The position numbers and the translations under genes are program-made. The notes below the pieces were generated by a model, which worked only from the letters and a program-made list of their open reading frames with translations, was not told the origin of the DNA and did no database searches. A DNA stretch of 64,000 nt from Pseudomonadota bacterium (lineage in GTDB: Bacteria; Pseudomonadota; Gammaproteobacteria; Pseudomonadales; Moraxellaceae). Position 1 is the stretch's first letter. Every line of letters begins with the position of its first letter. The stretch lies in contig JAJZHK010000006.1 of NCBI GenBank assembly GCA_021804565.1, forward strand, positions 1 to 64,000, written 5' to 3'. Below are positions 2,230-8,148 of the stretch, piece after piece.

Positions 2230-4101
2230 TCAGAGGGCGATCTGCGAGCCCAGTTCGACGACCCGGTTGGGCGGGATGTGGAAGTAAGCCGCGGCGCTGC
2301 CGGCATTGCGAAACATGGCGATGAACAGGTGCTCACGCCACAGCGGCATGGAGGAGCTGCGCTGTGGTATCAGGGTCTCGCGGCCGAGGACGAAGCTGGT
2401 GTTTTGCGTGTCCAGCGCCAGACCCTGACGGGTGCACAGCGGCAGGACCCCGGGCAGATCGGTGACGTCCATGAAGCCGAAGGTGACCAGCACGCGGAAG
2501 AACTGATCGTTGACACGCGTCACCTGGACGCGTTCGCTGTCATTGACATGCGGTTCATCGCGTATCTCCACCTTGAGGATCACCACCCGCTCATGCAGGC
2601 ATTTGAAGTGCTTGACACTGTGCATGAGGGCGTGCGGCGTACTGTTCAGGTGCTGGGTCATGAAGATGGCGGTGCCGGGGACGGTCGGCAGATTGCCTTG
2701 CGCCTGGGTGGCAAACTGCACCAGCGGCATGAGGTCTTCGCCGAGGTGCTGATTGAGTATGCGGCGGCCCAGCTTCCAGGTGGTCATGAGCAGGAAGATG
2801 AAGCAGCCCAGTGCCAGCGGCATCCAGCCACCCTGACTGATTTTGAAAAGGTTGGAGCTGAAATAGGCGATATCGACGATGAGAAACAGGCCGACGGTGA
2901 GAAAGGTGGGCAGGGCCTTCCAGCGCCAGATGTCGCGCACGACAAAGTAGGCGAGGATGGTGGTGATGAGCATGGTGCCGGTGACGGCGATACCGTAGGC
3001 CGCCGCCAGACGTGCAGAGGAACCAAAAATGAGCACCAGCAGGGCCACCGCGCACATCTGCGCCCAGTTGACGCCGGGCAGGTAGATCTGTCCGATCTCC
3101 TCGCTCGAGGTGTGCAGCACTTCCATGCGTGGCGCGTAGCCGAGGTGTATGGCTTGCTGGGTGATGGAGTAGCAGCCCGAGATGACCGCCTGCGAAGCGA
3201 TCACCGTCGCCGCCGTGCTCAGGGCGATCAGGGGATAGAGCAGCTGATGCGGGCTGAGCAGGTAGAAAGGGTTGCTGACCGCCTCCGGGTGGCGGATGAG
3301 CAGCGCGCCCTGGCCAAAGTAGTTGAGCACGAGACCGGGCAGCACGACAAAGAACCAGACGCGCTGGACCGGGCGGCGGCCAAAGTGGCCCATGTCCGCG
3401 TAGAGCGCCTCACCACCGGTGAGGGCGAGGACGGTGGCGCCCAGGGAAAAGAAGCCCAGGGCTGGATTATGGAGGAGAAAATCGATCGCGTAGTAAGGGT
3501 TGAGAGCGAGCAGCACGCGTGGCGCCTGGGCGATGCCATAGCCACCGAGGACGGCCAGGGTGCTGAACCAGACGATCATGATCGGGCCAAACCAGCGGCC
3601 CATGGTGCCGGTGCCGCGCTTTTGTGCGACGAACAGGCTGACCAGAACGATGAGCGACAAGGGCACTTCATAGGCGGTGAACTTCGGGGAGGCGATGCCC
3701 AGACCTTCGATGGCGGAGAGCACGGATATGGCCGGGGTGAGGACGCTGTCACCATAGAAAAGAGCGGCCCCAAACAGGCCGAGCAGCATCAGGTAGTGGG
3801 CTTTCTTGCCGCCGCTGCGCAGCACCAGGGCCATCAGGGCCATGATGCCGCCTTCGCCACGGTTGTCGGCGTGCATGATGAAAAGCACGTATTTCAGCGA
3901 CACCACCACCATCAGCGACCAGAACAGCAGAGAGAGGACGCCAAAGACGTGCACCGTACTCAGCGGAACGGCGTGACTGTCGCCGGCGAAGATGGTGTTG
4001 ACGGTGTACAGCGGGCTGGTGCCGATGTCACCGTAGACGACGCCGAGGGCGGCGATGGCCAGGGATCGGGTCGACTGCTTGATGGCCGAATCTGCACTCA
4101 T
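2230..4101 (-). CDS. kup: Low-affinity potassium uptake protein Kup
   Basis: A 623-residue inner-membrane K+/H+ symporter of the KUP/HAK/KT family. The hallmark GDIGTSPLY motif lies at residues 24–32, followed by about twelve hydrophobic segments and a roughly 170-residue cytoplasmic C-terminal domain ending in the conserved PPNRVVELG-type tail. Its ATG overlaps the rimO stop by four bases (ATGA), so it is read as the second gene of a rimO–kup unit. That pairing is positional; no functional link is known to me. Confidence 0.95.
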
Positions 4102-5438
4102 GCCTGCAACTCCGCATAAAGGTCATAGTCGCTGGCATCGGTGATGCGAACGTCGGCCCATGCGCCTTTTTGCAGGGCGCCGGCCCCGGCACCCTCGATG
4201 AAGACCTGGCCGTCGATTTCCGGAGCATCACCGGCACTGCGCGCCAGCGCCACCCCTTCGGCGAGGTCGATCTCGTCGATGAGCACACGCATCGATTGTC
4301 CGACCTTGGCAGCGAGACGTCGGCGCGAGATGTCCTGGGCTTTTTCCATGAAGCGTTCATAGCGTTCCTGCTGGATCTCGGCAGCAACAGGATCAGGCAG
4401 CTCGTTGGCGGCGGCGCCTTCGACCGGCGAATAGATGAAGCAGCCGACGCGATCGAGCTGGGCCTGCTCCAGCCAGTCCAGCAGGATCTGGAAGTCTTCC
4501 TCGGTTTCGCCAGGAAAGCCGACGATGAAGGTGGAGCGCAGGGTGAGCTGCGGCACCAGCTCGCGCCAGCGCTGGATGCGCGCCAGGGTATCCTCGGCGT
4601 GTGCCGGGCGTTTCATCAGCTTGAGCAGACGTGGGCTGGCGTGCTGAAAGGGGATGTCGAGGTAGGGCAGGATGCGTCCCGACTGCATCAGCGGCATGAT
4701 GTCGTCGACGTGCGGGTAGGGGTAGACGTAGTGCAGGCGCACCCAGACACCGAAGCTGCCGAGGGCCTCACAGAGTTCATAAAGCCGCGTCTTGACCGGC
4801 TGCCCATTCCAGAAGTCGAGCTTGTAGCGCAGGTCCACGCCGTAGGCCGAGGTGTCCTGCGAGATGACCAGCAGTTCTTTGACCCCGGCGCGGACCAGCC
4901 GCTCAGCTTCCTCGAGCACTTCGCCCGCCGGCCGCGACTGCAGGTCGCCACGCATCGACGGGATGATGCAGAAGCTGCAGCGGTGATTGCAGCCTTCGGA
5001 GATTTTCAGGTAGGCGTAGTGCTTGGGGGTGAGACGTATGCCCTGCGGCGGCAGCAGATCGACGAAGGGATCGTGGGCGCGTGCCGGCTGCGGCAGGTGG
5101 CGATGGACGGCATTGACAACCGCCTCATAGGCCTGTGGCCCGGTCACATCGAGCACCTGCGGGTGCACCTGACGAATCTGTTCAGCCTGCGCTCCCAGGC
5201 AGCCGGTGACGATGACCTTGCCGTTCTCCTGGAGGGCTTCGCCGATCGCCTCGAGGGATTCGGCCTTGGCCTGATCGATGAAGCCGCAGGTGTTGACGAC
5301 CACTAAGTCGGCGTCGGGATAGTCGCCGACGATATCGTAGCCTTCGCTGCGCAACTGGGTGAGGATGCGCTCGGAGTCGACCAAAGCCTTGGGACAGCCC
5401 AGGGAAACAAAACCTATCTTGCGCGCGGAGTCGGACAT
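4098..5438 (-). CDS. rimO: Ribosomal protein S12 methylthiotransferase RimO
   Basis: A radical-SAM methylthiotransferase that modifies Asp88/89 of ribosomal protein S12. Three N-terminal MTTase cysteines are visible at residues 15, 51 and 80, and the radical-SAM CxxxCxxC at 150/154/157 (CNHRCSFC). A TRAM-like domain closes the protein. With the ATG at 5438 the product is 446 residues, against about 441 in E. coli; an upstream GTG at 5447 sits directly on the AGGT ribosome-binding site and is less likely. A perfect extended −10 promoter lies just upstream. Confidence 0.96.
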
Positions 5439-5468
5439 GAGCGACACACCTAGAGACTAAGGTCGCGC

Positions 5469-5477
5469 ATTATATCA
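5469..5477 (-). promoter_or_regulatory. rimO extended −10 promoter
   Basis: On the minus strand TGATATAAT is a perfect TGn-TATAAT extended −10 element about 31 bases upstream of the rimO ATG. No good −35 lies 16–18 bases further upstream, which is acceptable for extended −10 promoters. Confidence 0.55.
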
Positions 5478-5500
5478 TCTTGATGTCGCTGGCGTGAGGA

Positions 5501-5559
5501 TGAGCGCTCATGGTGCAAGGTATTGGCGGCATGGCCGCACAATGCACTAAAGTAGTGCA
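5501..5559. promoter_or_regulatory. Tandem NtrC-type enhancer sites upstream of ntrB
   Basis: The 17-bp perfect dyad TGCACTAAAGTAGTGCA (5543–5559) matches the NtrC consensus TGCACCA-N3-TGGTGCA in all but the two central transition pairs. A second site at 5501–5517 has one perfect half (TGGTGCA, 5511–5517) and a degenerate partner. Their centres are 42 bp apart, four helical turns, the geometry expected for cooperative NtrC dimers. They sit about 60–105 bp upstream of the predicted −24 element. Confidence 0.7.
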
Positions 5560-5612
5560 TTCCATGCCCGGCTCTTGGCGAGCATGGGGCGCCACGTCGC
5601 GTTTGTACGGAC

Positions 5613-5628
5613 TGGCCCATAACTTGCT
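5613..5628 (+). promoter_or_regulatory. Sigma-54 promoter of ntrBC
   Basis: TGGCCCATAACTTGCT has the invariant GG (5614–5615) and GC (5626–5627) exactly ten bases apart, as in the consensus TGGCAC-N5-TTGCW. Together with the upstream NtrC dyads this predicts RpoN-dependent autoactivation. The start point would fall near 5639, next to the AGGAGG ribosome-binding site (5639–5644), giving a very short leader. Confidence 0.65.
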
Positions 5629-5651
5629 AGAGCTGGCCAGGAGGACCTGTT

Positions 5652-6729
5652 ATGGCCTTACAAGGTTTTGATCGCTGGCATCTTTTCGACAATCTCAGTA
5701 CCGGGGTGATCTACCTCGATCAGAGCGGCTGCATCGTCGAGCTGAACGCCTCGGCTTCGGCCCTGCTCGGTATAGGCAGCAAGGCCCTGGGGCAGCCGCT
5801 GGAGGAGCTGTTTCTCGACAAGGATGGCGAAGGCATGCGCCATGCCTTGCGGCGGGCGGTGGAGCAGGGGCATCCTTTCAACAAGCGCGAAGCGCATGTG
5901 TGGATAGGCGGCCAGGAGCGGGTTGTCGACTATGCGGTGACGCCGCTGACCGCCCAGGATGGTCAGACGCATCTGCTCATGGAGCTGCAGCCCATGGACC
6001 GTCTGCTGCGCATCGCCCGCGAGGAGGCGATGTCGACGACGCATATGGCCACCCGCCAGCTCATCCGCGGCGTCGCGCATGAAATCAAAAACCCCCTGGG
6101 CGGTCTGCGCGGTGCGGCGCAACTGCTGGCGCGGGCACTGCATGATCCTGAGCTCGAAGAGTACACCCGGGTCATCATCGAGGAGGCCGACAGGCTGCGC
6201 CATCTGGTTGACCGAATGCTCGGTTCGCGTCGGCTGCCGCAGCCACGCAGAATCAATGTGCACGAATGTCTCGAGCGGGTGCGTGCCCTGGTGATGGCGG
6301 AGGCGGGAGACGCCATCGACGTCGAGCGTGACTATGACCCCTCCTTGCCGGATCTCTACAGCGATCCCGATCAGCTCATACAGGTGTTGCTCAATATCGG
6401 CGGCAATGCCTTGCAGGCGCTGAGGGAAAATCCGCAGCCGGGGCAGCGTGGCCGCATCCTGCTGCGCAGCCGCTCGCAGCGCCAGTTCACCATAGGCAGC
6501 GTGCGCCATCGCCTGGTCCTCCGTCTTGATATCGAAGACAACGGACCGGGCATCCCGGAGGCCTTGCAGGCGGCCATTTTTTACCCCATGGTCAGCGGGC
6601 GCGCCGCCGGTACCGGTCTCGGTCTGTCGATCGCACAGGACATCATCAGTCAGGCCGGCGGCCTGATCGAGTGCGAGTCACAGCCAGGAAGGACTTTGTT
6701 CTCCGTTTATTTGCCCTGGGAGGAACGCC

Positions 6730-6755
<26 letters not shown>
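5652..6755 (+). CDS. ntrB: Nitrogen regulation sensor kinase NtrB (GlnL)
   Basis: A soluble histidine kinase/phosphatase that controls NtrC according to PII signalling of nitrogen status. Of its 367 residues, about 8–115 form a PAS sensor domain; the dimerisation/phosphoacceptor helix carries GVAHEIKNP with H143; the ATPase domain shows the N-box (NIGGNALQAL, about 247–256), the G1 box DNGPGIP and the G2 box GTGLGLS. There are no membrane segments, as usual for NtrB. A strong AGGAGG site lies seven bases before the ATG. Its 3' end overlaps ntrC by 26 bases. No glnA is adjacent. Confidence 0.95.

Positions 6756-8148
<1,393 letters not shown>

Follow-up and report, generated by a model that had tools for sequence, protein, structure and literature searches.

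A Probable NtrC-Activated Sigma-54 Promoter for ntrBC and Its Predicted Start-Point Geometry in Gammaproteobacteria

Introduction

In Escherichia coli, ntrBC follows glnA in the glnALG operon and is itself under NtrC control, through the NtrC-activated sigma-54 promoter glnAp2 with its two phased NtrC sites. In Pseudomonas fluorescens SBW25, ntrBC has been described as a positive autoregulatory loop; the sections of these accounts available to us give neither the anatomy of the ntrBC promoter nor its leader (PMC10621929, PMC13325599). As far as the accessible parts of further reports go, ntrC lies far from glnA in P. stutzeri (PMC8443478), expression of ntrB and ntrC falls with NH4Cl in P. aeruginosa grown in lavage fluid (PMC12942738), and beta- and gammaproteobacterial ntrB is counted among the genes predicted to have a sigma-54 promoter (PMC12316311), in a paper whose main text contains neither "leaderless" nor "start codon." The leaderless genes of E. 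coli were put at 18 (PMC3415461), and the portions seen of that study and of PMC3616915 make no mention of leaderless ntrBC. A full-text literature search, judged by titles and abstract openings and with subscription papers and supplements outside its scope, found no leaderless ntrB or NtrC messages.

Here, we explore the region upstream of ntrB in a stretch of 64,000 nucleotides (the window) from a Moraxellaceae bacterium. As at E. coli glnAp2, two phased NtrC sites lie upstream of a sigma-54 promoter, here a candidate one, and ntrBC would be controlled by NtrC; unlike in glnALG, ntrBC appears to have a promoter of its own and glnA lies elsewhere with another. The two NtrC sites are centred 42 bp apart, against 32 bp at E. 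coli glnA, and the predicted leader measures 13 rather than 73 nt. In its probable positive autoregulation, the locus resembles that of P. fluorescens SBW25 (PMC10621929, PMC13325599, as far as seen).

Materials and Methods

Around the best NtrB match of each genome, we located the position that aligns with the ntrB ATG of the window and scanned the 500 bp 5' of it. A pair was scored where an NtrC site with no more than 2 mismatches was followed, 20-220 bp downstream, by a sigma-54 motif with up to 4 mismatches in which GG and TGC had to be intact. Of the 58 relatives searched, 50 make up the order set, in which the genome of the window itself is counted; G011, G022, G023, G025, G032, G033, G035, and G036 were omitted, mostly as weak or partial NtrB matches, although G032 matched like G007, which stayed in. 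The ntrB start was extrapolated in G007 and G009, whose matches begin at residues 88 and 66, respectively. The class set, drawn evenly and with a separate family code for each genome, holds 80 of the 85 class-level NtrB matches outside the window's genus (G099, G061, G065, G115, and G154 omitted); for the pair count, the 78 with at least 400 bp upstream were used, G132 and G106 (<400 bp) being dropped. Over the resulting 128 genomes, GlnA was sought in an upstream stretch of about 1.5 kb for order-set members and as much as 2.5 kb for those of the class set.

All transcription starts are predictions from the -12 element: the C of its GC plus 12. Applied to glnA of E. coli MG1655, this rule returned a leader of 73 nt, with NtrC-site centres at -140 and -108, in agreement with the published values. 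Leaders of ntrB were counted to the first in-frame ATG after the predicted +1, at the 91 pair-bearing loci (43 order, 48 class). The glnA and glnK controls comprise the 30 loci returned for each, and the phasing analysis covers the 99 loci whose NtrC site has 2 mismatches or fewer.

Results

The ntrB Upstream Region and Its Genome

The features of the locus are collected in table 1. The strong NtrC site, which the sequence-only reading had taken for a perfect 17-bp dyad, is just that, and is the sole zero-mismatch match in its own 2.52 Mb assembly. It extends to a dyad of AATGCACTA/TAGTGCATT (5541-5561), and its centre lies 88 bp 5' of the predicted +1, the dyad being 53 bp upstream of the conserved -24/-12 element. 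The weaker second site claimed 42 bp upstream was also found, four helical turns away as proposed, with 3 of its 12 specified positions wrong; taken alone it is not convincing. The GG-N10-GC noted earlier at 5614-5627 (GG at 5614-5615, GC at 5626-5627) proved to be part of a sigma-54 match with 2 mismatches, with counterparts TGGCCTATAAATTGCT in G001 and TGGCCCATAAATTGCT in G002. In G001, a 3-mismatch site likewise lies 42 bp upstream of the best NtrC site; the spacing is not constant within the window's genus.

Table 1. Features of the ntrBC locus in the window, with coordinates counted from its first base.
Feature	Position	Strand	Basis
rimO-like gene, divergent neighbour	4098-5447	-	ORF only
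Weak second NtrC site TGAGCGCTCATGGTGCA	5501-5517	.	3 mismatches; centre 5509
Strong NtrC site TGCACTAAAGTAGTGCA	5543-5559	.	Read directly; centre 5551
Sigma-54 promoter -24/-12 TGGCCCATAACTTGCT (putative)	5613-5628	+	2 mismatches over the 12 specified positions of TGGCACGN4TTGCW
Predicted transcription start	5639	+	C of -12 GC plus 12; prediction only
Shine-Dalgarno AGGAGG at predicted mRNA 5' end	5639-5644	+	Leader 13 nt
ntrB, NR(II) sensor kinase	5652-6755	+	NF008293, 357 bits (cut-off 240)
ntrC, NR(I)	6730-8148	+	TIGR01818, 740 bits (cut-off 558.6)

The two regulatory genes overlap by 26 nt, and an intergenic region of about 204 bp is shared by ntrB and its divergent neighbour, a putative rimO-like gene, named from its sequence and used as the RimO query in the comparison of genomes. 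An extended -10, TGATATAAT, read by eye on the minus strand at 5469-5477 of the same region, is probably the rimO promoter. The only sigma-70-like match near ntrB is a single weak one at 5451-5478, without overlap with the dyad; sigma-70 was rejected on this ground as the main ntrB promoter. No basal sigma-70 promoter for ntrBC was identified upstream, and the loop would need one or read-through. A known RNA element was also rejected, with zero Rfam matches at gathering cut-offs in 5300-5800. In NtrC, the loop that contacts sigma-54, GAFTGA, is GAFSGA in the window, and the two other genomes of the genus that were compared have GSFSGA; T occupies that position in 100 other motif-matched NtrC sequences (a few counted twice).

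Across the assembly, the NtrC motif with at most one mismatch occurs at 21 places, against 3 for the reversed-pattern control. Among the 20 one-mismatch places are TGCACTCTTTTGGTGCC upstream of glnA and TGCACCATTATGGTGTA directly before a glnK-amtB pair. The genome carries rpoN, NtrC, NtrB, and two P-II genes. As the sequence-only reading held, there is no adjacent glnA: the assembly's single GlnA family match falls on a separate contig (C73), where glnA has its own NtrC sites and sigma-54 promoter TGGTACGTAATTTGCC. A glnA-ntrBC (glnALG) operon was consequently rejected, the adjacent gene being the divergent rimO-like one. A glnK-amtB pair on contig C17 has an NtrC dyad (L293, 264-280) 39-55 bp before its glnK, and the 318 bp up to the end of the contig contain no sigma-54 motif. 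On contig C53, another glnK-amtB pair stands after a porin-like gene (named by reading) and lacks an NtrC/sigma-54 pair.

Conservation of the Pair and Phasing

Sigma-54 motifs alone are not rare: with at most 3 mismatches, the window holds 116 against 136.9 in shuffles. The significance of the sites comes from their combination and conservation, not from single motifs. The comparison of this intergenic region among relatives, suggested along with the initial reading, returned the pair upstream of ntrB in 43 of the 50 order-set genomes (dinucleotide shuffle mean 0.525) and 47 of the 78 class-set genomes (shuffle mean 0.35) with the 220-bp gap limit, which was widened post hoc from 150 bp, making 90 of 128 in total; shuffle counts never exceed 3 in either set. 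The interior of ntrB gave 2/50 and 3/78, and the reverse strand 5/50 and 11/78. With the narrower 150-bp limit, the order set yields 39/50 against a shuffle mean of 0.24, with 0 in the interior of ntrB and 4 on the reverse strand. By these criteria, the pair is absent from 7 order-set and 31 class-set genomes. Since the pair is conserved in relatives, the earlier proposal that ntrBC is under direct NtrC/sigma-54 control, in a loop of its own, gains support at the level of sequence.

Second NtrC sites (at most 3 mismatches) occur 18-75 bp from the first at 36 of the 99 loci, where 14.15 are expected with shuffled flanks. Their spacings fall within 0.15 turn of 10.5n bp in 28 of 46 cases, against 35.6% expected (binomial p = 4e-4), and cluster at 18-20 (5), 31-32 (10), 40-42 (6), and 50-54 bp (9), a pattern with which the window's 42 bp agrees.

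The pair was found in 0 of the 10 genomes in which GlnA ends at most 210 bp from ntrB, in 5 of 7 with the end at 210-400 bp, in 47 of 63 with it >400 bp upstream, and in 38 of the 48 without a GlnA match in the upstream stretch taken. The 210-bp limit was set post hoc (an earlier one of 350 bp gave the pair in 5/15), which makes the Fisher p = 2e-6 for this relation optimistic. Given that the pair occurs with glnA beyond 210 bp and never with glnA abutting, an own promoter tracks separation from glnA, distance not being required; this predicted ntrB promoter is not just the outcome of the loss of a glnA neighbour.

Predicted Starts and Leaders

In the window, the predicted +1 is the first base (A) of AGGAGG, and a 13-nt leader that opens with its Shine-Dalgarno sequence is unusually short. 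It is nonetheless too long for a leaderless message, taken as a 5' end within about 5 nt of the AUG. G001, G002, G005, and G020 have a window-like layout, with leaders of 12-15 nt and the best-scoring NtrC site at -109 to -137; G005 and G020 have an additional NtrC site at -105. Over the window's own clade (5 genomes), the median anti-Shine-Dalgarno energy is -11.7, and all five lie at -5 or below.

Elsewhere, the predicted start often falls on the start codon itself. An ATG lies 0-5 nt after the predicted +1 at 37 of the 91 pair-bearing loci (class 35/48, order 2/43), and the first in-frame start is 1 or 2 nt away at 29 of the 91. The bases from the -12 element to the ATG vary among these leaderless-type loci. 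The start codon is less sure at 12 of the 37, where a further candidate start follows within six codons, and in G152 and G128, where one lies just upstream of the predicted +1. At 17/17 of the Alcanivorax-type loci returned (14 titled Alcanivorax or Alloalcanivorax, 1 Alcanivoracaceae, and 2 other gammaproteobacteria), the leader is predicted to be 1 nt long. In the nine of them checked base by base, the ATG is at the predicted place in all; a second in-frame ATG follows 6-15 nt on in five, and a strong Shine-Dalgarno sequence is present in one. Acinetobacter loci with the pair have longer leaders, of 22-93 nt.

With the same motif scan, the pair was found at 24 of the 30 glnA loci, with leaders of 31-147 nt when counted to whichever start lies closest to the aligned GlnA start, a rule other than that for ntrB; by the first-start rule (ATG or GTG), L270 and L275 come to 5 and 9 nt (2/24). 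For glnK, the pair occurs at 9 of 30 loci, with leaders of 23-215 nt. These long leaders make the tight placement peculiar to ntrB among the three NtrC-controlled genes compared. The sigma-54 elements of the class set often read TGGTTYG-N4-TTGC at ntrB, and TGGCAYG or TGGCACA, with ATGC or GTGC at -12, at glnA and glnK of the same class, differences that are perhaps a gene-specific promoter flavour.

Shine-Dalgarno energies of -5 kcal or below occur at 4 of the 37 leaderless-type loci, which is at background (11%), and the sequence is weaker there than at the other pair-bearing loci (Mann-Whitney p = 0.006). As independent proof of leaderless messages, this was rejected: the glnA-abutting loci are weak too, since 3/10 reach -5 or lower, and one of these three does so only for a TTG start. 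A strict leaderless sigma-54 motif search over 15 whole genomes, too strict for generalising, found the ntrB site in 7, plus 11 other places.

A quickly built NtrB tree of 138 rows was rooted at the midpoint after a short search and is weak at many forks. On the larger side of its root, to which nearly all class-set rows belong, the leaderless type makes up 35 of the 47 rows with a measured leader, against 6 of 45 on the window's side. The leaderless Alcanivorax rows stand beside those of the window's family, inside a starred set of 33 (97). On this weak tree, the leader of the window, which carries a strong ribosome site, looks like a later insertion between start point and ATG. G016 and G028, listed under the window's family, cluster with Acinetobacter, which points to the Moraxellaceae. 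Four further class-set genomes, G107, G064, G166, and G147 (L192, L212, L239, and L260), form one branch (support 80), in which a sigma-54 motif lies 155-177 bp before ntrB and an NtrC site near -31, downstream of the promoter, where it could be either a downstream enhancer or a repressing site like that of E. coli glnL.

Discussion

Our findings support a model where the 128 bp at 5501-5628 are, with high probability, a sigma-54-dependent ntrBC promoter activated by the operon's own product, in a direct positive feedback. Under nitrogen limitation, NtrB would phosphorylate NtrC, and NtrC~P dimers would occupy the strong site and, cooperatively, the weak one on the same helix face. The DNA would then loop, and the NtrC AAA+ hexamer would open RNA polymerase-sigma-54 at the -24/-12 element; transcription would start at about 5639, giving an mRNA that opens with its ribosome-binding site and reaches the ntrB ATG after a leader of 13 nt. 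The outcome would be a direct positive loop apart from glnA, with P-II/GlnK presumably acting as the brake. We infer the binding, activation, start point, sign of the feedback, and brake from the DNA and its conservation.

A different sign of regulation has a precedent in the glnL promoter of E. coli, which is repressed by NtrC binding. A scan of MG1655 placed a perfect NtrC site there at -38, TGCACTAAAATGGTGCA, two bases apart from the window's strong site, and found no sigma-54 element in 350 bp; an NtrC site at about -31 also occurs in the four genomes of the branch described above. By analogy, the window's dyad would shut a sigma-70 ntrBC promoter when NtrC~P is abundant, and GG-N10-GC would be incidental or minor. 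The dyad, however, lies well upstream of a conserved -24/-12 element with which it forms the pair kept in most of the 128 genomes, and the sole sigma-70-like site is clear of it; we regard repression as improbable. Still less credible is an enhancer serving the divergent rimO, or both genes, with ntrBC constitutive: the sites do lie inside the shared intergenic region and the minus-strand extended -10 faces rimO, but the sigma-54 element faces ntrB, and genomes without an upstream RimO match retain the pair. That the motifs arose by chance, given how frequent 3-mismatch sigma-54-like motifs are in the window, was rejected, since conservation of the pair is far over that in shuffles and second sites are helically phased; we give it next to no credence. 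Direct positive autoregulation of ntrBC is the best reading and very probable, and as wiring it is known.

No account was found in print of the geometry, in which the predicted start point coincides with the ribosome site in the window and with the start codon in a large part of the class. In many relatives, although not in the window, an auto-activated promoter would yield a predicted leaderless mRNA, as in lambda cI, whose mRNA from PRM is leaderless. The window differs from cI by its 13-nt leader and strong Shine-Dalgarno sequence, and the sigma-54 leaderless cases are predictions. We consider it somewhat likely that ntrBC genes with their own sigma-54 promoter are commonly leaderless in Gammaproteobacteria, the A of the AUG lying 13-14 nt after the -12 element, with the spacing kept and the bases not. 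Feedback on ntrBC would then run via a leaderless message, perhaps damping the loop or favouring the ribosome states of starved cells, and the window's clade would be derived, with about 12 bp carrying a strong ribosome site inserted exactly between start point and AUG.

Overall, our results suggest that selection maintains the positive autoregulation of ntrBC with or without a glnA neighbour, and such a loop bears on the easy rewiring of NtrC in evolution experiments (PMC10621929, as far as seen). If the predicted starts are right, a central regulator of Gammaproteobacteria, where few leaderless messages have been reported, would be made from a conserved sigma-54-dependent leaderless message; if true, this would allow testing whether leaderless translation tunes a positive feedback loop.
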